The notes beneath the pieces are model-generated. The model saw nothing but the letters and a program-made list of their open reading frames with translations. It ran no database searches and was not told the DNA's origin. This document shows, piece by piece, positions 32,346 through 61,955 of a DNA stretch of 64,000 nt. A program made the position numbers and the translations under genes. The stretch lies in NCBI RefSeq assembly GCF_000230735.2, contig NC_019967.1, forward strand, positions 1 through 64,000. Reading direction: 5' to 3'. This DNA comes from Natrinema pellirubrum DSM 15624 (lineage in GTDB: Archaea > Halobacteriota > Halobacteria > Halobacteriales > Natrialbaceae). The first letter of the stretch is position 1. Every line of letters begins with the position of its first letter.

Positions 32346-33638
32346 TCACCAGGTAAGGCCCTCGTAGGTGATGTCCGGGGTGGGGGTGATGCTGCGGCGG
32401 CCATCAACCACGACCGGCTCTCGCATCGTGGTGAACTCTTCATCGAGGGTCGCGAATTCGTCCCAGTCCGTGACGATTACGGCACCGACAGCGTCCTTGA
32501 GCGCAGCGGCGGCTGAACTGGTGTACTTGATGTCGGGGAATCGCTCGCGCATGTTCTCCGTGGCGACGGGGTCGTAGCCGACGATGGTGGCGTCGCGATT
32601 CTGGAGGCCCTCGATGACCTCAATAGCGCGGGAGTTGCGGACATCGTCGGTGCCGGGCTTGAATGCGAGGCCGAGCACGGCGACGCGCTCGCCGGCGACG
32701 TCAACGTAATCATTGAGGAGGTCGAGGAGTCGCTGGGGCTGGGTGTCGTTGACCGCGACGGCGGCCTCGAGAAGTGCAGGAGTGTAGCCCTTGTTCTTGG
32801 CGGCGGCGATGATGGCGTTGACGTCCTTCGGGAAGCAACTTCCACCCCAGCCAACCCCCGACCGGAGGAAGCGCTCACCGATGCGGTCATCAAGCCCAAT
32901 CGCGTCCGCCACCTCGTAGGCATCAACGCCGAACTCCTTACAGATATTCCCGAGGTCATTGATCAAGGAGACTTTCGACGCGAGGAACGCGTTGTTCGCG
33001 TACTTGATCATCTCCGCTTCTGCGATGTCTGTCTCGACAACGGGAGCGTCGGTTTGTTCGATGAGCGGCGCGAAGACGTCATAGAGGGTGTCGAGTGCCG
33101 TGTCGTCCTGGGTGCCGAAGACGAGTTTGTCGGGGTGCTGGAAGTCCTCGACAGCCGTTCCTTCACGGAGGAACTCGGGATTCATCGCCACATGGAGGTC
33201 CTCACCGAGCGTTTTTCTGGACGCGTCCTCGAGAATGGGAGCGAGCGTGTCCGTCGTGGTTGTGGGGATGACCGTGCTCTTCGTGACCACGACGTGCTCA
33301 TCGTCTTTGTCAGCGAGCGTGGCACCGAGGGTCTCGGTTGCAGCCTCAATGATCGACGTGTCAATGCTACCGTCGTCGCGAGACGGAGTGGGTAGCGCAA
33401 GGAACGTAACGTCCGTCTCACGAACATCGGCGTAGTCCGTGGTTGCTGTGAGGGCATCGCTGCCGTGTTCATCGAGGAGGTCGTCGAGGCCAGGTTCGTG
33501 GATTGGCGACTGGCCGGCGTTGATGGCGTCGACGATGTCTTGGTCGATGTCAACGTTCACGATGTCGTGGCCGAGATCTGCAAAACACGCCGCAGTTGTC
33601 GTGCCGACGTAGCCGCTGCCGACAATACTGACTCGCAT
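32346..33638 (-). CDS. aglM: UDP-glucose 6-dehydrogenase
   Basis: This 430-residue NAD-dependent dehydrogenase oxidises UDP-glucose to UDP-glucuronate, a building block of haloarchaeal N-glycans. It has the Rossmann motif GSGYVG at 7-12, the catalytic Cys in [12 protein letters not shown] and a C-terminal UDP-binding domain. The length is normal. It matches AglM in type. It is followed after about 106 bases by the PAPS-reductase-like gene on the same strand. Confidence 0.93.
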
Positions 33639-34511: not shown

Positions 34512-34649
34512 AATTTAGCAATCCAAACTCCGGACGTTTGCAAGGTAGCCGTCGATATTTACTTCACTCCCTCCTTCGAGGAAGAGGTCTCTACCCTCAA
34601 GGTTAGGTGAAAAGACCTATCATTGTTGACCGACACTCTCGCAGTAGTT

Positions 34650-35378
34650 ATGAAAGCAGTCGTCCTAGCAGCCGGTGAAGGAACGCGGCTCCGCCCGCTC
34701 ACCGAAGACAAACCGAAGGGAATGGTCGAGGTCAACGGCAAACCAATCCTCACGCACTGTTTCGAACAGCTCGCCGAGTTGGGCGCCGACGAGCTCGTCG
34801 TCGTCGTCGGCTACCGCAAGCAGGACATCATCGACCACTACGGCGACGAATTCGAGGGCATCCCAATCACGTACGCCCACCAGCGCGAACAGCAGGGCCT
34901 GGCACACGCGCTGTTGACCGTCGAAGAGCACATCGACGACGACTTCATGCTCATCCTCGGGGACAACATCTTCGACGCGAACCTCGAGGACGTGGTGCGG
35001 CGTCAACAGGAAGATCGTGCTGATGCGGCGTTCCTCGTCGAGGAAGTCGACTGGGACGAAGCGAGTCGCTATGGGGTGTGTGATACGAACAAGTACGGCG
35101 AGGTGACCGACGTCGTGGAGAAGCCCGAGGACCCGCCGTCGAACCTCGTGATGACCGGCTTCTACACGTTCAGTCCCGCCATCTTCCACGCGTGTCACCT
35201 CGTGCAGCCGTCGAACCGCGGCGAGTACGAGATTAGCGAGGCTATCGACCTGCTGATTCAGAGCGGGCGGACGATTGATGCGATTGGCATCGAAGGGTGG
35301 CGTGTGGACGTCGGGTATCCCGAAGACAGGGACCGGGCGGAGAAGTTGGTCCAAGGGAAGGATCCTGTAGAACAGTAG
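34650..35378 (+). CDS. aglF: Glucose-1-phosphate nucleotidyltransferase
   Basis: This protein has 242 residues from MKAVVLAAGEGTRLRPLTEDKP (34650). The signature LAAGxGTRLRPLT near the N-terminus, LGDN at about 108-111 and VEKP near 158 mark the sugar-phosphate nucleotidylyltransferase family. It matches AglF in type, which makes UDP-glucose for AglM. It is on the opposite strand to aglM, two genes away. The short form without the C-terminal beta-helix agrees with AglF. Confidence 0.88.
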   Translation: MKAVVLAAGEGTRLRPLTEDKPKGMVEVNGKPILTHCFEQLAELGADELVVVVGYRKQDIIDHYGDEFEGIPITYAHQREQQGLAHALLTVEEHIDDDFMLILGDNIFDANLEDVVRRQQEDRADAAFLVEEVDWDEASRYGVCDTNKYGEVTDVVEKPEDPPSNLVMTGFYTFSPAIFHACHLVQPSNRGEYEISEAIDLLIQSGRTIDAIGIEGWRVDVGYPEDRDRAEKLVQGKDPVEQ

Positions 35379-35432: not shown

Positions 35433-36944
35433 CTAACTAATGTATCGAATCCCGTTGATAAGCCACCGTGAGATGGGTGACGGGGCATTATCGAGAATAG
35501 AGGTGATTTCCTCTGATTCGATTGCGTTGGTCCGCAATGCGAGCGTCGAATAGACGAGAAAACCAACTGGTGGGACGACGACTAGTGAAAACACGGAAGA
35601 ATCGATAGCGTAGGCTAGTCCGAAAATGACTGGTGCGGATATCGCTGCGGTGAAACCAACGCGGGTAACTCGAAGATCACTGATTGGATTGTACCCAATA
35701 CGGCGCGCAACGATGTAATGAAATGCGAGCATCGAACCATAGCCGATGCTCGTAGCGGTAGCTGCACCGGCCATCCCATACCGGGGGATAAGGAAGAGGT
35801 TCAGAACGAGATTGATTACCGCTGCGGTTCCAGTCGCGACAATTAGCGACCGAAGATCTCCTTTTCCCTGTCCGATTGCGTATATCGGCCTAGCGAGGGC
35901 GAATCCGAGTGCGCCTGGAAGAAGGAGGAGAAGCGGTGTAACTGCAGCATCAAACTCGGGACCGAAATACAACTGCATAAACTCGGATGCAAGGGCGGCG
36001 ATTCCGAGTGCTATCAGTACCGTAAACAGGAGCGTATATCTCGTTGCCTGACTCGCCATACGGGAAATTTCGTCTAAATTCCCTCGAGACCAGAGCTCGG
36101 AGGAGGAATGAATGAAGACAATTTGGGCGGCCTGCGGTGCAATCCAAAGGAATTCTGCTACGACGAGTGCAGCCTTGTATAGTCCCGTTTGCTGGCTACC
36201 GGCTAGGGGCTGGAGCAATAGGATATCGACATTGTACAGAGATATTGTTAGCAGAATGAACACCGTATTGAATATGTTAAAGCTCAGCAGGTCTCTTTGA
36301 GGAAATTCAGAAGGAAGCGAGCGAAACACTGCGGTAATGTCGATGTGTTCTCTGAGCATCCACGTTGCCACGAAGGCACAGACCAGAGACGCAATGGCTG
36401 TTCCCGCAAGCGCACCAGCAACGTCAAAGCCGATGTACGCGAGGGACAAGCCAAAAATCCCGAATAGGAGCTGCTTGAGAACAGAGAGCGGCTCGGAGTA
36501 TTTTTCCAGATGAAGTCCCATTAACGTGTACCGTGTGACGTAGAAAAGCTGGTCCGTGACTAGCATGGCTGCAAGAAGTAGAATATACGTCGAAAACCCT
36601 GGCCCGACTAGTCGATCAGCTGGTCCGTACCACCCGAAGAGAATCAATATCGTTGCAACGAGTAGTACGAGGCCCGTAGCCAGACGTGCGTAGAACACGA
36701 AGACATGTTCTTTCCACGCCCGTTCAGACCGATCTTCAGCGATATACTTTCGAATACCCGCTGAGATTCCCGCGCGAGCAAACGTTCCGATAATAGCAAA
36801 GGCGGAAATTACGAAGGCGTACTCACCATAGCTTTCGCTGCCGAGGATTCGCACTAGCAATGGTGTAATCGCAACACCAAGAAGCATTCCACCAACCTTT
36901 CCGCTAAGAACCGAGACAAATCCAGAAATGGTCTTGCTACTCAT
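35433..36944 (-). CDS. Polysaccharide flippase (Wzx/AglR type)
   Basis: This 503-residue protein has about 12-14 hydrophobic segments along its length and is a member of the MOP/polysaccharide transporter superfamily. It probably flips a lipid-linked glycan across the membrane, as AglR is thought to do. It starts close to the MurB-like gene, at 17 bases from that gene's stop on the same strand. A second flippase gene nearby (42977-44417) is broken, so this one may be the only working copy here. Confidence 0.9.
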   Translation of the reverse strand: MSSKTISGFVSVLSGKVGGMLLGVAITPLLVRILGSESYGEYAFVISAFAIIGTFARAGISAGIRKYIAEDRSERAWKEHVFVFYARLATGLVLLVATILILFGWYGPADRLVGPGFSTYILLLAAMLVTDQLFYVTRYTLMGLHLEKYSEPLSVLKQLLFGIFGLSLAYIGFDVAGALAGTAIASLVCAFVATWMLREHIDITAVFRSLPSEFPQRDLLSFNIFNTVFILLTISLYNVDILLLQPLAGSQQTGLYKAALVVAEFLWIAPQAAQIVFIHSSSELWSRGNLDEISRMASQATRYTLLFTVLIALGIAALASEFMQLYFGPEFDAAVTPLLLLLPGALGFALARPIYAIGQGKGDLRSLIVATGTAAVINLVLNLFLIPRYGMAGAATATSIGYGSMLAFHYIVARRIGYNPISDLRVTRVGFTAAISAPVIFGLAYAIDSSVFSLVVVPPVGFLVYSTLALRTNAIESEEITSILDNAPSPISRWLINGIRYIS

Positions 36945-36960: not shown

Positions 36961-37806
36961 CTACGACCAGATCTTCCATTCCACTTCAGGAGTTTGAAAG
37001 GGGGGGACGAGCTTATTGAGCAATTTTGCTAGGGAGACTAGTCGCTTTACATCACTAAACGTTGCATCGCCATCGTTACCGATTCGGTTCGGTCCGATGA
37101 ATCGTGCGTTCCCAACAGATAGTCCACCAGGTGGAATCTTATGAAGGGGAAGTCGAGCACCCGACTTGAACACCGATCCAGCATTAGGCGTTGACCGGTC
37201 CCGTTCATTGACCTTCTCCATCCGCTGTTGCGCTTTTTCACGCCCTTCCTCCTGAGATTGGGAGGGGAGTTCAAATGTTGCACTGAGAATCACCCAATCG
37301 TCGTGTTCTTGGAAGGACGAGTAACGATGGTCGAAGTTGAGATCATCAACAGGTATTTCGGTCGTATCGCCGTCGGAAAAGACCTCTACAGAAACCAAAT
37401 AATCGCTGATTGTCTTGTCGTGGGCCGCACCACGTCCAGCGTTCATATAGATTGCGCCACCAATAGTTCCTGGGACCGAGTATAGATACTCGTAGCCGCC
37501 GAGTTCGTGTTGAATACACTCGTTGATGAACTGGGGAACCATTACCGACGCTCCAGCGGAAACAACGTTTCCGTCAAATTGGCGGTCAGTACATGCTACG
37601 GTGTTTTTGATTATGAGCTCGTTGATTCTGTCATCTGAAACGAGAAGATTCGAGCCGTTCCCCAGAAGTCGATATGCTCGGTTCTCTGTATGACACTCTC
37701 GCAGCAGTTGCACGAGCTCTTCTTTGCTTTCTGGGACTGCAATCTCTGCCGGGCCACCTATTTTAAGCCACGTGTATTCGGCCAGTGGTTCAGTCGTTCG
37801 TTTCAT
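36961..37806 (-). CDS. murB: MurB-like FAD-dependent reductase
   Basis: This 281-residue protein has the MurB (UDP-N-acetylenolpyruvoylglucosamine reductase) pattern: FAD-binding GNGSNLLVSD at 49-58, SVPGTIGGAIYMNAG at 110-124, FDHRYSSF at 158-165, the catalytic-type Ser in TPNAGSVFK (S211) and a Glu in PEVEWKIW at the end. MurB reduces an enolpyruvyl ether to a lactyl ether in muramic acid synthesis. Archaea of this class have no murein, so the substrate must be another sugar. It overlaps the upstream pyruvyltransferase gene by 17 bases. No MurA is seen in the window. Confidence 0.87.
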   Translation of the reverse strand: MKRTTEPLAEYTWLKIGGPAEIAVPESKEELVQLLRECHTENRAYRLLGNGSNLLVSDDRINELIIKNTVACTDRQFDGNVVSAGASVMVPQFINECIQHELGGYEYLYSVPGTIGGAIYMNAGRGAAHDKTISDYLVSVEVFSDGDTTEIPVDDLNFDHRYSSFQEHDDWVILSATFELPSQSQEEGREKAQQRMEKVNERDRSTPNAGSVFKSGARLPLHKIPPGGLSVGNARFIGPNRIGNDGDATFSDVKRLVSLAKLLNKLVPPFQTPEVEWKIWS

Positions 37807-38968
37807 AGTCCTCTTTTACCATATTCAGAAAGTCGAAGCCTTGCTCTCGTAACCCGGATACTCGACGGTTAATATGGGTTTCGTCAGGCTTACGCTCTAA
37901 ATCATCTACTCGGGCATAGAACTCAGATAAATCCCCATTCACAGCATTAATATGTCTATTTAGGAGCGAAAATTCCTCTAAAAGTGAGTGCGTCTTACTC
38001 TCCATATTATCGTAAATACTACTGACATCGACCGTAGTGAACGGAGTTCCATGTTTAAGGCTAAATATTGTTGAATGAAGGCTACTTGTTATAACCATAT
38101 CGTAATGTTCGTAGGTACTATAGTACTCAAACGGGTCTACTTTACCTATTAGCTCAAGATCCACGAATTTTGAAGAAGTGGGGGTGACAATTTGAAACCC
38201 TTTATCTCGATAATATGAGCAAATTTCCTTGAATGTGGGATTATCGTTATGGCTGTGGACACCCAAGATTGGGTCATCAAGATTGATCCCGTTCTCTTCA
38301 AATATATCTCGAACATTACTGGTAGGGAGTTCTGTCATTAGTGTTGGGTCTGGCACACGATAAACAGAACTGATTCCGAGTTTCGTCACCAGTTCTTCGG
38401 TATGGTTGTCTCTTACACTGACATGGTCATAACTATATAAGTGGGTCTTGACTTGGCTCAATTTTGACTCAGATAAGTCACTTGGATTCGTTTGATTCGC
38501 CGAGGCAGCGTATGCTACTTTAATTGATGAAAGGTCGGGGTCAAGAAAGTAGAGGTTCGGGAATGGACGTGTTGGAGATAAACGTGGCAAAAAATCCCCA
38601 CCCAGGTCTGTATTGATTTTCCAAATTTCATCGCTTCCAGTTATAACCATATCATATCCTTGGTTTTCTAACCAATCTACTGCGCGACCATGGTTATCAG
38701 TAATAATGGATTCACTGCTTGTAGGTAATTTTGTGTCGATGAACTCCTCAACAATTCGTCGATCCTTGAAACGGACAACACTTCGCCAAGGTCTCTTTGT
38801 GAGAAATATAGGATTCCGACGGCTATGTTCCTTAGCTTTTGTACGGTATTCAATTACTTCAACATCCGCCGAAAATACCTCATCAAGAACCTCACAAAGG
38901 GAGTAGGCCTGTAAGATCGCCCCCCGGTTTTCGTTATTATGGAACGTGAGAACCCCAATTTTAGACAT
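37790..38968 (-). CDS. Polysaccharide pyruvyl transferase family protein
   Basis: This 392-residue protein has the two-Rossmann GT-B-like architecture of the CsaB/WcaK pyruvyl transferase family. N-terminal GVLTFHNNENRGAILQAYSL, middle VITGSDEIWKIN, and later VRDNHTEELV and HYDMVITSSLHSTIFSLKHGTPF are the family landmarks (the last carries the conserved SxxHS/H-rich site). These enzymes use phosphoenolpyruvate to put a pyruvate ketal on a sugar. It is coupled to the MurB-like gene by overlap. This part of the window is rich in A+T. Confidence 0.85.
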   Translation of the reverse strand: MSKIGVLTFHNNENRGAILQAYSLCEVLDEVFSADVEVIEYRTKAKEHSRRNPIFLTKRPWRSVVRFKDRRIVEEFIDTKLPTSSESIITDNHGRAVDWLENQGYDMVITGSDEIWKINTDLGGDFLPRLSPTRPFPNLYFLDPDLSSIKVAYAASANQTNPSDLSESKLSQVKTHLYSYDHVSVRDNHTEELVTKLGISSVYRVPDPTLMTELPTSNVRDIFEENGINLDDPILGVHSHNDNPTFKEICSYYRDKGFQIVTPTSSKFVDLELIGKVDPFEYYSTYEHYDMVITSSLHSTIFSLKHGTPFTTVDVSSIYDNMESKTHSLLEEFSLLNRHINAVNGDLSEFYARVDDLERKPDETHINRRVSGLREQGFDFLNMVKEDYETND

Positions 38969-39006: not shown

Positions 39007-39924
39007 TTAGGATTCCGGTCTGTTGTTGCCCTTTACTCTTTCATAGATATGTCTTGACAGTTGAACCCCCGGCCTACCGAATAATGCAGCAAAAATACTC
39101 AGAATAAGTACGGGATTATGTAATCCCTTATACCTAGCTGCGAGTGCGTAAAAATAAATCGCGGATGGAGACCAAATTCTATTTTCAATCAAAAAGTGGG
39201 CTTTACTATGGTACACCCCTCCAAGCGCGTTACGCTCTACTCTTGGCGGGAATTTTTTATACAGCCCTTGATATTCATTGTAAATATCTTCAAGTTCATA
39301 TGCGAACTCAATCTTTGACGAGCGGCTATCAACAGAATCACCGATTCTTGTGAGTATAGAGTCTACAAAACCAAAGTCCGTCTCCTTTGCTAACTCAATT
39401 TTCATACCAATATCATCCGCTGCAGGCCGGTTCTTAAGAGGGGTGATATTTGCAAGGACTTCGTCTGAGATTAGCAATGAGGAGGTAATTGTTGTGGGCC
39501 AGAAAAACTGAAGTGCTAATTCTAGTGAGTTCTCTCGCTCGTCTTCATCCGGAGATATTTGACAGCCATTGCGGTCAATAATACCACCATAGGCCACACC
39601 AACTGATTTTGTCCGTTCTAACAAATCTACTTGCTGTTCAATTTTTCGATCAAGGATCACGTCATCGTCATCTAGGAACTGAATGTATTCGCCCTGAGCG
39701 GATTCATATCCCGTGTTTCGTGCTGGATTGCCGCCCATATTTTTACTATGGGGGATATATCGGACGTCATAACCAGCTACGATGGGCTTCGCATACTCCT
39801 CGCCGGAGTCATCCACGACGATGACCTCGATATCGTCATAAGTTTGTGCAAGGGCGCTTTCAACAGCTTCTCGTAAGCTCCTGTCCCGATAGTATGTGGG
39901 AATTATAACGGATACCAGGCTCAT
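39007..39924 (-). CDS. Family 2 glycosyltransferase
   Basis: This 305-residue protein has a GT-A fold. It begins SVIIPTYYRDRSLREAVESALAQTY with VIVVDDSG, and has the metal-binding QFLDDDDV at about 86-93. There is no transmembrane segment except weak hydrophobic stretches near the C-terminus. It probably adds one sugar to the lipid-linked glycan. It precedes the pyruvyltransferase gene on the same strand and probably shares its transcript. Confidence 0.9.
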   Translation of the reverse strand: MSLVSVIIPTYYRDRSLREAVESALAQTYDDIEVIVVDDSGEEYAKPIVAGYDVRYIPHSKNMGGNPARNTGYESAQGEYIQFLDDDDVILDRKIEQQVDLLERTKSVGVAYGGIIDRNGCQISPDEDERENSLELALQFFWPTTITSSLLISDEVLANITPLKNRPAADDIGMKIELAKETDFGFVDSILTRIGDSVDSRSSKIEFAYELEDIYNEYQGLYKKFPPRVERNALGGVYHSKAHFLIENRIWSPSAIYFYALAARYKGLHNPVLILSIFAALFGRPGVQLSRHIYERVKGNNRPES

Positions 39925-40003: not shown

Positions 40004-41690
40004 TGTTCTAAAAACTATTCGTACGTGTTTACCCCGAGGTCTCAACAACCGGCACAGTCTGCTCTCGTGAGATCATTTCGTTGTCGTGGACAACCCGCGT
40101 AAGTTCCTCGTATGGGTTGCGTCCCTGCTGGCGCCACGTCGCCAGCAGGGACAAGATCGTCTCGTGAACGAACATGCCACGGTCGTTCCGGAGTGTTCCG
40201 ATGATTTTCCGGAGAACAACAGGTTCACGAAGGGCGTTTTCTGCGGCATTGTTCGTCGGGGAGACCGCTGGCTCACCGACGAAGGTGAGCCAGTGGTCGA
40301 GTCCACCTTCGATCTTCCCGAGGAGTGTTGCCACTGGTTCGTCGGTCACTGACCGCTCAACGAGCGATCTGAGGCCGTCCTGACACGCTCGATGCATCTG
40401 TGCTCTCGCACGAGGATCTGGGTCGGTCTCCAGCCACGACTGGAGACCGACGAACATCTGCTTGAGATACCGGTACACCGGTTCTGCCTCCTCGTGGTCA
40501 CTAGCAACGTCTTCAGCCTCCCGGAGAAGATGTGCCCAGCACCGCTGAAGCGTACTGCTGAACGCTGGATACGCCGTCCACCCATCACAGATGACCGTTC
40601 CCGCGAAGTCCTCGCCAAGGACTTCCGCGGGAACATCACTCCCACGACTCTCTCTGACCGCGTACAGCGTATGCTCGTCCGTCCGAAACGTCCAGATCCA
40701 CGCTTGGTCACCGTCACGCTTGATGCCGGTTTCGTCAACGTGGACGATTTCAGCCTCCTGAATCTCTCGACGGATCTGCTCGTACTCACAGCGACCGGCG
40801 CGCGCAGCGCGCTCGGTCGCGTGCCACGCGGATGCACCTGAGAGTTCGAGTCCGTGAAGTTGCTCGAAGCGGTCCGTGATTTTCCGGTAGGGAAGGCGGT
40901 GATCGTACCGTGACAGGGCAGATTGCGCGATGACGTTCACCCCGAACTGCCCCTCATCGGGGCAGTCGGGGTGAGTCGCAACCGTCTCAGTTCCACAGGA
41001 GTCGCATTGGTAGCGGTGTCGGTTGTACTGGGTGACTTCTGGTGGCTGTGGATCCGGGACTTCCTCGACGAGTCGGGGGCTGACGCCCACCGACTCGTCG
41101 AAGTGGTCGCCACACTCGGGACAACAGTCAGAGGTGACCTCGATTTCTTCATCAGGATCGGGCGGAGAGCGCCACTCCGGGTTGTGACCGTCCTTTCGAC
41201 CGGGAGTACCACCATCAGTTCGGACATCGTCGTCTTCGTCGTCCTGCGAGGTCGGGGACTCGTCGGTCCCCGACCGTCGCTTACTGGGTGGAGTGTGTGG
41301 ATTCTCGTACTTCCGGAGACGTGTTTCGAGTTCTTCGATCCGCTCTTGCTGCTCTTCGATCCGCTCTTGCTGCTCTTCGATCCGTTCGTTCTGTTCCTCG
41401 ATCCGCTTGTCCTTCTGGGCAATCTTCTCTTCCAGCTCGTCGATTCGCTCCTCCATCTGGAGAAACCGCGAGAGGAGTTCGTCCTTGGAGAGATCGTCCC
41501 AGCTCATCGATTCCACCTCGAAACGACGACAGCAGGGCCGACGGGATGGTCTCCGGGCAGCGGAGACCATCCCTGAGAATGTAGACTGACTCCCTGCTGA
41601 CAGACCATGTATCTGTCACAGGCCACCACCTACGAGACAGTGACGAAATCAGACGGGGCTAAACACGTACAACTATTCAAAATCAGCCCC
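40004..41690 (-). mobile_element. IS66-family element
   Basis: Imperfect terminal inverted repeats share GTACGTGTTTA and CCCCG at the left (about 40004-40036) and the complementary bases at the right (41654-41684). The transposase gene fills the space between. The exact ends and the target duplication could not be fixed. It separates the family-2 glycosyltransferase from the next glycosyltransferase gene. Confidence 0.7.
40029..41507 (-). CDS. IS66-family transposase
   Basis: This protein has 492 residues from MSWDDLSKDELLSRFLQ (41507). A long N-terminal coiled coil with the heptad-like repeat RIEEQQE leads to a zinc ribbon (CCPEC...CDSC) and the DDE domain (VHVDETGIKRDG, VICDGWTAYPAF, NNAAENALRE). 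It is the TnpC-type transposase; no tnpA or tnpB helper genes accompany it. The frame is intact. Confidence 0.9.
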   Translation of the reverse strand: MSWDDLSKDELLSRFLQMEERIDELEEKIAQKDKRIEEQNERIEEQQERIEEQQERIEELETRLRKYENPHTPPSKRRSGTDESPTSQDDEDDDVRTDGGTPGRKDGHNPEWRSPPDPDEEIEVTSDCCPECGDHFDESVGVSPRLVEEVPDPQPPEVTQYNRHRYQCDSCGTETVATHPDCPDEGQFGVNVIAQSALSRYDHRLPYRKITDRFEQLHGLELSGASAWHATERAARAGRCEYEQIRREIQEAEIVHVDETGIKRDGDQAWIWTFRTDEHTLYAVRESRGSDVPAEVLGEDFAGTVICDGWTAYPAFSSTLQRCWAHLLREAEDVASDHEEAEPVYRYLKQMFVGLQSWLETDPDPRARAQMHRACQDGLRSLVERSVTDEPVATLLGKIEGGLDHWLTFVGEPAVSPTNNAAENALREPVVLRKIIGTLRNDRGMFVHETILSLLATWRQQGRNPYEELTRVVHDNEMISREQTVPVVETSG

Positions 41691-42976: not shown

Positions 42977-44417
42977 ATGAATATCGCCAAGTCCAGTCTG
43001 AAAATTATGGGTGCGCGAATCTGTAAATCCGTGGCTAGCTTTTCCGCGGTCGTGATCTTTTCTCGTGAGCTGGGAGCGTCACCACTTGGAGTTTACTACC
43101 CGTTTATTGCGGTACTAGGGGTTTTGGGCATCCCCGCGAATTTCGGGCTATCAAATGCTACACAGAAGAGAATCAGTGAAGGAGAGGACTCCGGTTCGTA
43201 TCTTGGATCCTCAATTGCGCTACGCGTTCCTCTCATAGCGGTTGTCGCCGCATCAATTGTTGTCTTTGAAGGATATTAATGAATTCCTCGGTGCTGACCT
43301 TGCTATACTGTTAGTTCTTACTTTATTTGCTCACGAAGCAGGTCAGTTCTCGTTAAGTGTCCTTCGTGGAGAGCTAAGAGTAGGGGAGACAGCCATCATA
43401 GAGGTCCTCCAACCACTCAGCTGGCTTATAATCGGATATATTCTATACACCCATGGGTACGGGGTATATTCTCTCGTCTATGGCTACTTGTGCGGCTCAG
43501 TCCTTATGCTGATTGCTGGCTGGTGGAAAGTTTCAACGCCGATTAAACGGCCGACGCTTAAGCATTCCTGATCACTTTTGGACTATGGAAGGTTTAGTGT
43601 TGTAACTGCGGTTGGCGGGTATTTGTATAGCTGGATGGACGTCATCATTCTCACATTCTTTGTCTCTTTTGGAATTGGTATATCGCGTGCTGAAATTGGA
43701 GCGTATGAAAACGCGTGGCGTGTGTCTCTTGTTGTTATATTGTTCAGTCAGGCGGTTTCTACTGTCTTATTCCCGCAATTCAGTAAATGGGACTCCGAAG
43801 GCGCTTTGCATAAAATTGAGTCAGCTATACCACGTGCATTGTTGCCTTCATTATTGCTTGTGATTCCAGCATTCGTTGGCACTACAGTTCTTTCAAAAGA
43901 TATCTTGTCAATTCTATTTGGAGAGGAGTTCGTCGTAGCGTGGGTTGCACTGATCATTCTGACTGGCGAAAGATATTCCAGTCTATACATGTTTTCGCTA
44001 GTAGCGCTCTTACAGCTATTGATCGGCCTGATTTGGCCGCCTATGCCACAATCGCTTCAATATCGTTGAATTTATTGCTAAATATAGTTTTGATATGGGA
44101 GTTCGGGATTGTCGGAGCTGCAATCGCCACAACAATATCATTTGCCGCGAATACTACTCTTCACATCTATTACTTAAACCGATTCATAGATATTAATCTC
44201 CCGCTAAAAGAGGTAGGGGGGTATAATCTCATCTATAATTATGGGGATTCTAGTCCATTACATACGTTCTGTGTCTAAGATTAATACTCTGTTCGACCTG
44301 GCAGGCATTATCGCCTTTGGGGCAATCGTTTACACAGGGGTTGCGCTCATTTATCCACCAATTAGAATGACATCCCGACAACTTCTCAGACCAGTTTATT
44401 TCTCCCTGGCTGGCTAG
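42977..44417 (+). pseudogene. Decayed polysaccharide flippase gene
   Basis: Consecutive hydrophobic frames together span 480 codons, the normal length of a Wzx-type flippase. They are 42977-43279, about 43260-43571, 43578 to about 44000, about 43985-44278 and a last part ending in a TAG at 44415-44417. At least four frame changes separate them. The N-terminal SLKIMGARICKSVASFSAVVIFSREL and the later GAAIATTISFAANTTLHIYYLNRFID are typical of the family. The A+T-rich sequence and many shifts show loss of selection. Confidence 0.82.
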
Positions 44418-44918: not shown

Positions 44919-47126
44919 CTATCTATATACTTTCGATAGACCGTTCGTATATACTTTGTTTTTAGTTGTGAGCTTTGGCAGATCGAAGTATTCGTAGTAT
45001 ACAAACCCGTTGAAACCCGTTGTTATTGTTCCACTCGTCGTATCTGCCTGAGTGATGTACGTATACTCCTCATCAAGATCCTCTGGATCCTTTATACTCT
45101 GAATATTGGGATCAGTTTCATCAGGTGCTTTAAGCTCTGTTGAATACGCCCCCAACTTACTCTTATACACCGTACCCTCGTCGGGAATGTATTCCGCAAT
45201 AAACGAAGACGCGAATAGACCACTTTCAGGAGTGTACACTCGATATAGAGCGAATTGTTCTATTGGATCGCCGGACTGTATAATTCGATCTCTATCGAAG
45301 TTTGGTACCCGCGACGCGTCGTGAGTCACCGTCGCAGCGACGAACCCGGACGACAACAACATAAGAATCATAAGTAAGACACCTGCCGGAACAAATCGGC
45401 CTCGACTTAACTTGGGGAGGCACACAGCGAAAATCGCAAATGGTCCTAAGAATACCATCAGAAGCCCGAACGTACGTGCCGAGCTCAAAACGTTTGGTCC
45501 GAATGAGAGCGGAAATAGCACTGCTAGACCGAGCACTATACTTAAATACGCTCCATTTTGGACTACACCAGAAGCATCGTCCGCGATAATATCTTCTATC
45601 CGAGTGATGACTTGGTGCTCTATTGAGAGTACCCGTAGCAGGTAGACAAGCGAGAGGACACCGATTGTGAGACACGTGAGGGCAGCGATAATCAAGTGAG
45701 AGTAGAAAAACACCTTGAACGAAAGTGAGGGCATATCAAATGAAATCGCGTTCGTTGCGGCAGTGTTTGTTGTTGGTGTGAGAAAGCTCAGTGCACGGCC
45801 GATAAGGACGCTACCGACGAAGCTGAAGGTGTCTCTAGTTATGTAGGCGTACCACCCGAACGTCAACACGACGTAGAGTGTGAGCCCCGTGAATTCAGCC
45901 ATCGGTTGCGGTTCACCCCCGAAATATCTGAGGATTCGATAGCAGACGTATGCTGGAATAATCAACAGCAACACAAGGGGGCCGATCCCGTAGTGAGAGG
46001 TAATCAACGCCCAAAAGAACGCGAGCGCGAGGAAATTCCGATACCGCTTCTGAATACCGCTATCGAGAACGATGGCGACGAGAATAGCAGTAAAGAAAAT
46101 CGCGGCACCAGTTCGCGTATTTCGCGGGAGCAGCCGATACGTCTCCGGTAGAAAGACGTACAGTACCCCTCCGAGAAATGCCACTTCCTTTGAGAAGTAC
46201 CGCACTGAAAGTAGGTAACCGATTACAGGTGTGAATGCGAACACAACTGGATGGGCGATTTTGAACACCCTCAGAAGCGGAATGTCCATTACTAGCTTGT
46301 AGGCGGCCTGCATCGGCCCGATCCGAACCATCGCCCCTATCGTTCCCGTCGGGACCCAGTAGCCAGTACTGAGAATATTCTGAGCGATACTATATTCAGC
46401 CATTCCGTCGCCGAAGGCGAGATGCGTCGCAAGGAGGGCACGCTGTAACACGAGAGCAAAGGAGATCACCAGTATCGATAGTCCTAGATATCGTCGCTTT
46501 CCGTCGAATTGGAGGACAAGTAGAGGGAGAACGGCACACGCAGCAAGGACTGAGAGCGCTATGCTGTTCTCGCCGACGCGATTGATGAATAACGCACCAG
46601 AGATACCGAAAACCGGGAGTGTAAACAATAATAAAACGACTTTGATGTTATATTCGTAGACATAACTAAAGACGCGACATATCTCATCAACGGGGGACTG
46701 ATTCCGGGTCAGATACCACGCTGAGACAGTAAGTGCGCCGATTACACTGACGTAAATCCAGACGAGAGTGGTCCCGTTGAACGGCTTCGAAATGATCTGA
46801 AACTGCATATACACTGCGTTCGCCAGCCAGGCGACGAACATCGAAAAGGCGACGCTCAGCGCCACCGCATACAACATATCAATCGGCCGGAATCGATCTC
46901 GTATGACGCGCAAGATCAGCAATCCCGGCACGAACGTCAGTAGGACAAATCCAAGAGCCGCCTGGATAGCTGTCGTCCCCGGCAGCGGTTCTGGAAGGAA
47001 AACGCTCACCGCGTAGAGTATCGTTAGAAACCCAGAGAAACGAATTGACTGATGAGTGTTCGGAGCAATGGCCGATATTACGGCAGTCCGGAACAGCTCT
47101 GTTCGAGTTACTTGGGTGGTTGCCAT
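44919..47126 (-). CDS. Large polytopic membrane protein of the glycan cluster
   Basis: This 735-residue protein has about 14-16 hydrophobic segments in the first 600 residues and an extracellular-looking C-terminal domain (about 620-735). The layout, with the conserved-looking LAFGDGMAEYSIAQNIL loop, resembles DUF2206-type archaeal membrane proteins and GT-C glycosyltransferases, which use lipid-linked sugars. It is last in a minus-strand run with two glycosyltransferases and a sulfatase. A role in transferring or polymerising sugars outside the cell is inferred. Confidence 0.75.
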   Translation of the reverse strand: MATTQVTRTELFRTAVISAIAPNTHQSIRFSGFLTILYAVSVFLPEPLPGTTAIQAALGFVLLTFVPGLLILRVIRDRFRPIDMLYAVALSVAFSMFVAWLANAVYMQFQIISKPFNGTTLVWIYVSVIGALTVSAWYLTRNQSPVDEICRVFSYVYEYNIKVVLLLFTLPVFGISGALFINRVGENSIALSVLAACAVLPLLVLQFDGKRRYLGLSILVISFALVLQRALLATHLAFGDGMAEYSIAQNILSTGYWVPTGTIGAMVRIGPMQAAYKLVMDIPLLRVFKIAHPVVFAFTPVIGYLLSVRYFSKEVAFLGGVLYVFLPETYRLLPRNTRTGAAIFFTAILVAIVLDSGIQKRYRNFLALAFFWALITSHYGIGPLVLLLIIPAYVCYRILRYFGGEPQPMAEFTGLTLYVVLTFGWYAYITRDTFSFVGSVLIGRALSFLTPTTNTAATNAISFDMPSLSFKVFFYSHLIIAALTCLTIGVLSLVYLLRVLSIEHQVITRIEDIIADDASGVVQNGAYLSIVLGLAVLFPLSFGPNVLSSARTFGLLMVFLGPFAIFAVCLPKLSRGRFVPAGVLLMILMLLSSGFVAATVTHDASRVPNFDRDRIIQSGDPIEQFALYRVYTPESGLFASSFIAEYIPDEGTVYKSKLGAYSTELKAPDETDPNIQSIKDPEDLDEEYTYITQADTTSGTITTGFNGFVYYEYFDLPKLTTKNKVYTNGLSKVYR

Positions 47127-52189: not shown

Positions 52190-53500
52190 CTATGCCGTAC
52201 CCACGGAGGCAAGTTTCCCGTCGTCGGTACTCTGGTTTGTGCGCTCCTCGTTGGGACTTGCCCTCTCGGGAGAGCGTGACGACTCCGACCACGTATGGTC
52301 GTCCCACTTGAGGCGCACGGGCCGTGCCATCGACCCGACTTCTTTGCCAGCCTGTCGTTCGAGGAACGTCCGCGAGGCACCGAGGTCGGCGTGTCCCTCG
52401 TAGCCACACGAACACCGGAACACGTCGCCGGCCCGCTCTGTCTCGTCTCGCTCGCCACACACGGGGCACTCCGCCGTCGTGTATGCTTCTGACTCGATTT
52501 CGACCGTGATGCCATACTCCTCGGCGGTCGTGGCGAGACGGTCGATGAACGAGCGATACGCCCAGAATTGGTGCGTTTTCTCGTTCACTCGCGCCGACCA
52601 ATGTTCCGACAGCACATCGTTGAGGTGGCCCACGTATACGGTGGCAACGCCCTCGTCGTACAGTCGTTCCATCAAGTCCCGCACGAGCGTGTCCTGTGCG
52701 TGGTCGCGTCGGCGTGTCCGCTTGCGGTAGAGGCGTCGAATCCGGCGACTGCTGTACCGGCCCTCGCGGAGTTTCGATTGCAAGCGGGCGATCTCCTCGG
52801 TGGTTTCGCGGAAGCGGACGAACAGGTCGCGGCCCTCGTAGAGGTACTGCTGGCCGGTTGTGGTAGTACAGGCGACGAGGTTGTTCGCGCCAACGTCCAA
52901 GGCAGCCGATTCCTCGGCTAGTGGTGAATCCCGTCGAGAATCAGGTACGGTAACGGGTTGAATGGCCCTGAACGTGTCTTCGACCTCGTCGTAGTACAGT
53001 TCCAACCGACCCTGTTCGCCCTCCCATTTCGGGTTGCCAGCGACTTCGAGGCGTAGGCGCTCCTGGTAGCCAAGTCCGTACTCGTCTTTTAAGTCTTGGC
53101 CGACAGGGATTTCGAGGCGGCTCCGTTCGCCGATTTCGAGGGTGTACTGGTCGTTGCGGATGAACGTGCGGAGTTCCCGACCCTCATCTTCGTTGCCCCA
53201 GTATCCGGGCGGGGCGGCGTCCTCGCCATCCTCTCGGGCAGCGAAGAACGACCGCCACGCCTCGCTGTTCTTGCGGATGACCTGTTGAGCGGTGGCAGAG
53301 CCAAGGACACCGACGTACTGCTTGCGGTAGTCGGCGGTATCCCACACCGACTCGCCGTCAAAGAAGTTCTGGCGACGTTCGTAGGTGAGTTCGTTCCACA
53401 GGCTGGCGGAGGCGTCCAACAGCTCGTGGAGCAGTTGCTCGTCCTGCGTGGAGAGCGGGCGCACCGCGAATGTGTTGGTTCGCCTCACGACAACAGACAT
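52190..53500 (-). CDS. tnpB: TnpB-family protein, possibly nuclease-altered
   Basis: The start at [16 protein letters not shown] (53500) gives 436 residues. It has a RuvC Asp D202 in [12 protein letters not shown] and D372 in [12 protein letters not shown], and a zinc ribbon C345, C348, C363, C365. Where TnpB proteins have an acidic residue in the middle RuvC motif (ED or GD before L), this protein reads [10 protein letters not shown] with H292. If the alignment holds, the nuclease is weakened or dead, as in TnpB-like repressors. It differs strongly from copy 1 at 2055-3272. Confidence 0.85.
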
Positions 53501-53533
53501 TTGTAGTTCTATGTCTAAATGTCTTTTGGACAT
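53496..53533. promoter_or_regulatory. Shared promoter with ATGTC/GACAT repeats
   Basis: In the 38 bases between tnpB and the RHH gene, GACAT (53496-53500), ATGTC (53511-53515), ATGTC (53519-53523) and GACAT (53529-53533) form overlapping inverted repeats. The first includes the tnpB start codon. This looks like an operator for an RHH protein. Confidence 0.55.
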
Positions 53534-59422: not shown

Positions 59423-60582
59423 GTGATTAGCAAATCTTATTGAGAAATCCACTGAGGTGATTGTCAATCCACGATGCAGCGAAACTCAGTTTCTCGGTCA
59501 GTTGGTCGAACAGTTCGTCAAGGAGTCTCCGGTACTCGTCTTCGCCGTTAACAATCAACGGCGAAGACTCCCACTTGAGACTCTTCCAGACAGGTTCGAT
59601 TGGGTTGAGGTCCGGGGAACCAACCGGAAGGAACACCAGATCAATCCCGAGTTCATGAGCACGCTTGCGCGTGTGCTTGCAGACGTGTGACGAAAAGTTA
59701 TCCAACACGAGCAGAATCCGCTTGCCGGGATTCTGCTCGCGGATCTCCTCGAAACACCCACAGATTTGTTCTTTCTCCTGGTTCGGTGGGAACGACAGCA
59801 CGCTCTCTCCGTTGAGCGCATAGAACCCGGCCGCTGGTGTATCGATTTTCACCAGCGGCCGAGTGATATGTGGTTCATCGACCGTATACAGTCGCTGAGA
59901 GTTGTCCCATGGTTGTGGATGCGAGACATCGAAAAATCCCACCACAGTCCCGCCATCAGTGCAGATATCCTCATCGGTACGCCACTTCTCTTCGTCGTCA
60001 TCGTCGTCACTCTCGCGCTTATTATGTGGCTGGTCGTGAGCATCCTCGTCGAACGCGTACTCAACGCGTTCGTCGAGGATCTCTTCGGCGTTGTCGGGTC
60101 GATCAGGCCGTTTTGTCCGAGGAATGGCGTAGGAAAGGCCGAGATTGTGTAGGAACGTTGGGAGGTAGTGTGGATGATATTCGACGTCGAACTCCTCGTC
60201 GAGAAGGTGCTGAATCTCCTGTTTTTTCCACGGTTGTCCCTCACGTAGTCGATCGATGAGTTCGTCTTGTTGGTCTTCGTCGAGCTTCGGGGGCCGACCG
60301 CCCCCGAAGTTCGGAGTGAGTTTGCCGAGACCTCCTTCGTTCCAGCGGTTAACCCAGTTCGTGGCGGTGCCCTCAGATTTCCCGACGTCGTCGGCGGCTT
60401 CCTTCAGCGTGGCACCCTTGTACAGCCGTTTGATGAACACGAGGCGTTCGAATTCCTTCTGATCGTCTGCCTCGCCGAGAAGACGATCCAGATCTTCTTC
60501 ACTCAGGTGTCGCACGATTTTCTTCTCTCGACCAGTCACTACACTAAAGAGATACTTCTACTCAATAACTTTCCCGAATCAC
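59423..60582 (-). mobile_element. IS630-family element 2, nested
   Basis: The ends GTGATTAGCAAATC... and, on the complement, GTGATTCGGGAAAG... share GTGATT and a later TTATTGAG. TA at 59421-59422 and 60583-60584 is the target duplication. Length 1160 bases. The boundaries are confirmed by the restored transposase frame of the host element. Confidence 0.9.
59427..60539 (-). CDS. IS630-family transposase
   Basis: This protein has 370 residues in a single frame, unlike IS630 element 1. N-terminal helix-turn-helix (GATLKEAADDVGKSEGTATNWVNRW), second DNA-binding part (about 95-150), then the DDE core with GFFDVS, LVLDNFSSH and SPDLNPIEPVWKSLK. An acidic insertion (ESDDDDDEEKWRTDED) lies before the core. 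It looks intact and could be active. Confidence 0.92.
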   Translation of the reverse strand: MTGREKKIVRHLSEEDLDRLLGEADDQKEFERLVFIKRLYKGATLKEAADDVGKSEGTATNWVNRWNEGGLGKLTPNFGGGRPPKLDEDQQDELIDRLREGQPWKKQEIQHLLDEEFDVEYHPHYLPTFLHNLGLSYAIPRTKRPDRPDNAEEILDERVEYAFDEDAHDQPHNKRESDDDDDEEKWRTDEDICTDGGTVVGFFDVSHPQPWDNSQRLYTVDEPHITRPLVKIDTPAAGFYALNGESVLSFPPNQEKEQICGCFEEIREQNPGKRILLVLDNFSSHVCKHTRKRAHELGIDLVFLPVGSPDLNPIEPVWKSLKWESSPLIVNGEDEYRRLLDELFDQLTEKLSFAASWIDNHLSGFLNKIC

Positions 60583-61955
60583 TAAACTCGGCGTGGTCGA
60601 ACGTGACCGCAAGCTCCAGATCCCTGCCTTCGTTTGGGCGTTCGTGTTCGGCTTCGCCGCAGGCGAAAGCCGAACACTCGCCGGTTTTAGACGCTGTTAC
60701 AACTCTACTGCCGATGAGACGATTTCTCCGGGTGGATTCTATCAGCGGTTGACACCGACGCTTGCGGAGTATCTCCGCGACCTCGTCGAGCATGGTCTCG
60801 ACGAGGTCGCCGTTCCTAACGCTGTTGACGCTGATATCGACCGATTTAGAGACGTGATGATCGCTGATGGAACGGTGTTGCGGTTACACGAATTTCTCTC
60901 AGATCAGTTCGAAGCCCGCCACGAGGAGCAGGCTGGAGCGAAGCTCCACCTGCTCCACAATGCCACAGAGCAGACGATTGAACAGCTCGATACTGCTAAC
61001 GAGAAAACGCACGACAGCACCTTGTTCAAAACAGGGCCGTGGCTTGAGAATCGCCTCATGCTGTTCGATCTCGCCTACTTCAAGTACCGCCGGTTTGCGC
61101 TGATCGACGAAAATGACGGCTACTTCGTGAGTCGGCTGAAGCAGAACGCGAATCCGCTGATTACCGGAGAGCTACGGGAATGGCGCGGCCGCGCCCTTCC
61201 CTTAGAGGGCAAGCAGCTCCGAGCTGTTCTCGATGATCTTGACCGGAAATACATCGATGTGGAGGTCGAAGTCGAATTCAAACGGGGGCCGTACAATGGG
61301 ACACAGTCGCTGGATACGAAGCGGTTTCGCGTCGTCGGCGTCCGCGACGAGGACGCCGACGACTACCACCTGTACATGACGAATTTAGCGAGGAAAGAGT
61401 TCTTTCCGGCGGATTTAGCGGAGATCTACCGCTGTCGGTGGGAAGTTGAGTTGCTGTTCCGGGAGCTGAAGACGCAGTACGAATTGGACGAGTTCGACAC
61501 GAGTGACGAACACGTGGTGAGGATCTTATTGTACGCAGCGCTGCTGTCGCTGCTTGTAAGCCGCGATCTGTTGGATCTAGTCACTGAGCAGGCGGATGAT
61601 GAGCTTGTGTTTCCGACAGAGCGCTGGGCGGCGACCTTTCGGTCGCACGCCCAGCTTATTCTCCACGAACTCGGTGAGTTCCTTGGCTACTCACCACCGC
61701 CGCTTCTCGACCGGCTGATCGAAGACGCTCAAAAGATCCACAAGCAACGACCAATCTTACAAGAGACGCTCGCTACCGCTACACAACCGAGGTGTGAGGC
61801 TTAACTAAAGACGGATGCTGAGATCGTATTTTAGGCTTAGCAATTCTGTACACCGCAATATCGCGGTTTTAGTGTCTCTCCATAGTCCACTTGTGCTTAA
61901 TCGAATAAGCGACGGTAGAATTATGGAGGTCGCCGCCGTCGGGTCAGTCAACGGA

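Follow-up and report, generated by a model that had tools for sequence, protein, structure and literature searches.

The window, a 64,000-nt stretch of Natrinema pellirubrum DSM 15624 (contig NC_019967.1, positions 1 to 64,000), contains a glycan locus in which a MurB-like gene overlaps a gene for a polysaccharide pyruvyl transferase-like protein (PyrT). The contig is probably a secondary replicon, because it measures 287,800 bases and Cdc6, ParA, and TraG/TrwB-like genes lie in the window. The minus-strand genes are read in the order GT2, PyrT, MurB-like, and flippase:

32346-33638, minus strand: AglM-type UDP-glucose 6-dehydrogenase, context gene for UDP-glucuronate supply
34623-35378, plus strand: AglF-type UTP--glucose-1-phosphate uridylyltransferase, context gene
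35433-36944, minus strand: Wzx-type polysaccharide flippase, 503 aa, downstream of the MurB-like gene
36961-37806, minus strand: MurB-like FAD reductase, 281 aa, proposed enolpyruvyl ether reductase
37790-37806, minus strand: 17 bases shared by the 3′ end of PyrT and the 5′ start of the MurB-like gene
37790-38968, minus strand: PyrT, PF04230 polysaccharide pyruvyl transferase-like protein, 392 aa, predicted GT-B-like fold, proposed PEP-dependent (enol)pyruvyl transferase
39007-39924, minus strand: GT2 glycosyltransferase, upstream of PyrT, not conserved with the cassette

Both overlapping ORFs start with ATG, and a GAGG-like motif lies inside PyrT immediately upstream of the MurB-like ATG. The 17-base overlap with a pyruvyl transferase gene, reported in a first-pass annotation of this DNA, was recovered, and PyrT matched PF04230 over almost the entire profile (E = 2e-30). 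Transposases of the IS66, IS605 OrfB, and DDE types flank the glycan locus (40029-41570, 52190-53533, and 59427-61804). A second flippase gene, apparently broken, is present as pieces at 42977-44069, and a 735-aa membrane protein is encoded at 44919-47126 (weak DUF2206 match, under the cut-off).

Sequence and model comparisons make the homology of the MurB-like protein to MurB certain. It matched NCBIfam PRK13905 (E = 2e-49, 168 bits; cut-off 259 not reached), TIGR00179 (120 bits; cut-off 144.5 not reached), and Pfam FAD_binding_4 (PF01565, E = 2e-14), as well as the MurB structure 4pyt, both by sequence (E = 3e-27) and by Foldseek (E = 1e-16). The AlphaFold model was moderate (pLDDT 67, poorest in the C-terminal domain) and also matched, at lower scores, DprE1 and other sugar oxidases that share this fold. 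The catalytic-type Ser and the FAD motif named in the first-pass annotation were both found in the alignment, the latter as GxGSNLL, together with the following positions:

37324-37326, minus strand: Arg161, counterpart of the MurB catalytic Arg
37174-37176, minus strand: Ser211, counterpart of the catalytic Ser (E. coli Ser229)
36979-36981, minus strand: Glu276, counterpart of the catalytic Glu (E. coli Glu325)
37429-37434, minus strand: Arg125-Gly126, insertion (NAGRG)
37093-37095, minus strand: Gly238, at the C-terminal His column

Two PyrT-partnered homologs have Thr in place of Ser211. The NAGRG insertion was common to a clade of eight PyrT-partnered proteins (described below) and absent in the housekeeping MurBs compared. 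A Pfam search for the MurB_C substrate domain (PF02873) gave no match in the MurB-like protein. The C-terminal column held His in all 14 of the housekeeping, MurA-paired, or other MurBs and a different residue in 11 of 11 PyrT-partnered proteins (P = 2e-7, uncorrected for relatedness, the 11 not forming one clade in the best tree). Judged by its sequence, the protein is not an ordinary MurB, and its C-terminal substrate domain has diverged.

UDP-GlcNAc and muramic acid are unlikely as substrate and product because of this divergence. The muramic-acid-like residue put forward in the first-pass annotation is not supported. Synthesis of genuine muramic acid (UDP-MurNAc) for a glycan of haloarchaea draws on the MurB homology and on a MurA-MurB pair in a related haloarchaeon, and we consider it very improbable, given the lost His, the unmatched MurB_C domain, the scores under the family cut-offs, and a genome without MurA. 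In the genome of the window, no gene matched the MurA of that relative at E ≤ 1e-40, no MurB_C gene was found, and the one EPSP-synthase-family gene is presumably aroA. The relative (G034, same genus as the window) carries its MurA-MurB pair in a glycan locus (L013, 3849-6006); its MurB exceeded the cut-offs (PRK13905, 296 bits; TIGR00179, 217 bits), as did its MurA that of PRK09369. A MurA of this type occurred in 1 of 194 haloarchaeal genomes. MurA-MurB pairs were also present on Agrobacterium, Qingshengfaniella, and Haematobacter plasmids (L069, L072, and L075), by glycosyltransferases and away from peptidoglycan genes. Together, these four pairs indicate that MurA is an alternative first enzyme.

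Among 391 haloarchaeal genomes, the MurB-like gene (>50% identity) was found in six and PyrT in eight, and all six of the former were among the latter (hypergeometric P about 6e-12); the association is not due to chance. The pair was thus present again in five other genomes, holders including Natronorubrum texcoconense and Halostagnicola sp. All six MurB-like genes were beside or near a common flippase (that of the window 62-70% identical to the others), and the flanking glycosyltransferases varied among the six loci. The first-pass annotation had recognized the pair, which stands, and had missed both the flippase as a third conserved gene and the bacterial counterparts described below. Decay was seen in three genomes. 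In G194, an intact PyrT is followed by a 48-aa relic of murB and then by the flippase; in G060, the gene order is rearranged, and the 28 aa left of murB still adjoin the flippase; G271 carries a frameshift. These relics and the frameshift, the adjoining IS66, and the low G+C of PyrT (0.415 vs. 0.565 for the window) are what would be expected of laterally acquired passenger genes having no present function. Such a reading has very little probability in our view, since frames and catalytic residues are intact in copies 52-67% identical, with third codon positions the most variable. The recurrence in five other genomes and this variability of third positions argue that the pair consists of real, selected genes.

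Scanning genome contigs with the single MurB-like sequence gave no match, whereas a scan with a PyrT alignment led to bacterial loci. Two of nine of these, one from a Ruminococcus MAG and the other from an alphaproteobacterial MAG, had a MurB-like gene by PyrT, and each of the two genomes has a housekeeping MurB besides. A plasmid search added MurB-PyrT pairs in Cetobacterium, Novosphingobium, and Levilactobacillus (flippase in between), and on plasmid pAES7 of Paracoccus aestuarii PyrT and MurB are fused in one polypeptide. On the Ruminococcus albus plasmid of L081, PyrT and a flippase are followed by a thiamine-pyrophosphate-binding protein. Five haloarchaeal MurB-like proteins grouped with those of Ruminococcus, Cetobacterium, and the alphaproteobacterial MAG in a clade of eight (100/100), all PyrT-partnered and set apart from housekeeping MurB. 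The MurBs of the P. aestuarii fusion, Novosphingobium, and Levilactobacillus were long branches outside this clade, and a single origin of the 11 PyrT-partnered MurBs was neither shown nor rejected (AU test, P = 0.178). Bacterial MurBs matching the alignment at 1e-49 to 1e-56 were rejected as further MurB-like proteins; the 20 other Clostridia matches look like housekeeping murB, judged by their context, a best score to the G034 MurB, and the lack of a PyrT nearby. Among 289 genomes from the class to which the alphaproteobacterial MAG belongs, no further MurB-like copy was found. Because the association is conserved across genera, haloarchaeal families, and domains, includes a fusion protein, and occurs where MurA is missing, functional coupling of the MurB-like protein with PyrT in the glycan locus is strongly supported, and we regard it as nearly certain.

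Two other kinds of flavin reductase were found beside PyrT. A nitroreductase gene overlaps PyrT in roseobacters, is paired with it in L. plantarum and Allorhizobium, and is fused to it in P. alcaliphilus; FrhB-type proteins overlap or abut PyrT in Phocaeicola (L083), Klebsiella aerogenes p35_D (L084), and Sinorhizobium meliloti (L085). A search of E. coli DNA found no FrhB-PyrT pair. Both FrhB-type enzymes and nitroreductases are capable of C=C bond reduction. The PyrT of Novosphingobium, partnered by MurB, is 53% identical to that of Allorhizobium, partnered by a nitroreductase, so a single type of PyrT can be paired with either reductase. Control loci were the best-scoring ones and not a random draw: in 30 clostridial PF04230 loci, most of which are CsaB-like and carry RLH, no MurB, nitroreductase, or FrhB lay within 1.5 kb, and in 30 haloarchaeal PF04230 loci MurB accompanied only the four PyrTs of the SLH type, whereas nitroreductase accompanied three of the SRYH type. 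The SRYH-type PF04230 proteins beside a nitroreductase measure approximately 465 aa (L102, L107, and L112).

The AlphaFold model of PyrT (pLDDT 83, pTM 0.87) had GT-B-fold enzymes as its top PDB structure matches and predicts a GT-B-like fold; PDB sequence searches returned no real relative. The score to the CsaB equivalog was 27 bits vs. the 213 needed. One motif sets PyrT apart:

38075-38083, minus strand: Ser-Leu-His of PyrT, aligned with Arg-Leu-His of WcaK

SLH was present in all seven haloarchaeal PyrT homologs, and the WcaK Arg was replaced by Ser, Phe, Tyr, or Thr in every MurB-partnered PyrT. A second Arg, in the motif S-V-R-[DE], was conserved. In Pvg1p, which has a GT-B-like fold, an Arg has been proposed as a PEP contact (PMC4872226); this residue, Arg337, was placed at the Ser-Leu-His from the motif alone, the Pvg1p sequence not being in the alignment. 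The rule that loss of the RLH Arg always means reductase pairing was rejected, since the motif is SRYH in three haloarchaeal PyrTs that adjoin a nitroreductase.

These data bear on what PyrT makes. It could form an ordinary 4,6- or 3,4-pyruvate ketal while the MurB-like protein carries out a separate redox reaction on a different sugar of that glycan; PF04230 enzymes of known product do form ketals (PMC6801904; PMC4872226), and the match to oxidases such as DprE1 suits such a role. The fusion or overlap of PyrT with MurB and with two other flavin reductase kinds, the universal replacement of the RLH Arg in MurB-partnered PyrTs, and the complete lack of such reductases in the 30 clostridial, mostly RLH loci argue against this reading, and we regard it as unlikely. 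For the pyruvyl-modified sugar of the first-pass annotation, taken as a plain ketal, the need for a reductase is left unexplained. Somewhat less likely again is that the PyrT subgroup does not use PEP and adds another group, for example an unsaturated acyl or alkyl unit, which the flavin enzyme then reduces. The position of the proposed PEP-contact Arg of Pvg1p is occupied by Ser, Phe, Tyr, or Thr in this subgroup, and no assayed member of it was found in the open-access literature; against this stand the conserved Arg in S-V-R-[DE] and the known action of MurB-type enzymes on enolpyruvyl ethers.

MurB reduces enolpyruvyl ethers, and a ketal-forming transferase requires no reductant. Since MurA is missing and MurB has this chemistry, the most economical reading has PyrT as the source of the enolpyruvyl ether. 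An ether of this type is quite probably what the MurB-like enzyme reduces. PyrT, the MurB-like protein, and the flippase would then constitute a glycan-decorating cassette. With PEP as donor and in the place of MurA, PyrT would transfer an enolpyruvyl ether onto a sugar hydroxyl of a lipid-linked or nucleotide-linked glycan unit and presumably stop at the enol ether, with no ketal closure. The MurB-like flavoenzyme would reduce the C=C bond to give a lactyl (1-carboxyethyl) ether, and the acidic unit would be exported by the partner flippase, which may be specific for it. The joint sugar modification proposed in the first-pass annotation is borne out as to coupling (by conservation, fusion, and the missing MurA); as to its product, we infer a lactyl ether as the best-fitting chemistry, with one literature correlation (Klebsiella K22/K37) in its favor. 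We judge this cassette with a lactyl ether product to be, on balance, the probable explanation. Counted against it are the intact PyrT of G194 despite its murB relic, PyrTs with no nearby reductase (L028 and L029), the Thr for Ser211 in two partnered homologs, and the moderate MurB-like model. The flavin partner could also have a different sugar of the glycan unit as its substrate.

The proposed cassette resembles MurA-MurB in its two steps, transfer of enolpyruvyl from PEP and FAD-dependent reduction to a lactyl ether, and in a second enzyme homologous to MurB with the catalytic Arg, Ser, and Glu kept. It differs in its first enzyme, a PF04230 protein with a predicted GT-B-like fold that bears no relation to the EPSP-synthase fold of MurA, in the diverged C-terminal domain of its MurB, and in its location in glycan loci rather than in peptidoglycan synthesis. 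CsaB, WcaK, and Pvg1p share with PyrT the PF04230 family, glycan loci, and, presumably, PEP as donor. However, they make ketals with no reductase, whereas the PyrT subfamilies are paired or fused with flavin reductases, and at the position of the SLH in the PyrT of the window, WcaK and the clostridial CsaB-like loci carry RLH.

Klebsiella capsule types K8, K22, K37, and K66 lack pyruvate although each has a pyruvyltransferase gene (PMC4616057). The K22 capsule bears 4-O-[(S)-1-carboxyethyl]-GlcA, from which K37 differs by acetylation only (PMC3857182). The K22 and K37 loci resemble the cassette in that a pyruvyltransferase gene accompanies a capsule with a 1-carboxyethyl (lactyl) ether but without pyruvate (PMC4616057; PMC3857182). 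The Klebsiella cps survey counts a nitroreductase gene twice and an F420-hydrogenase gene once (PMC4616057). In the K22 and K37 loci, the reductase would be one of these nitroreductases and not MurB; our guess is that these two genes are those of K22 and K37, whose loci are near-identical. Lactic acid ethers are well documented in bacterial O-antigens and capsules (PMC10609480; PMC12786566). In the open-access literature, we found no description of a PyrT-reductase pair or of the biosynthesis of lactic acid ethers other than muramic acid.

These results suggest an unrecognized way of attaching lactic acid to surface sugars. More tentatively, the reductase-paired PF04230 proteins may be a second class of enolpyruvyl transferase, with a fold unrelated to MurA/AroA, and may form with interchangeable MurB-like, nitroreductase, or FrhB-like reductases a general pathway to the lactyl-ether sugars of surface glycans of Archaea and Bacteria. 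If true, an enzyme pair found in both domains, sometimes fused, would supply the missing route to lactyl ethers, many glycan-locus genes called pyruvyl transferase, nitroreductase, F420 hydrogenase, or murB would be reannotated, and haloarchaea would gain an acidic sugar decoration that has so far not been sought.
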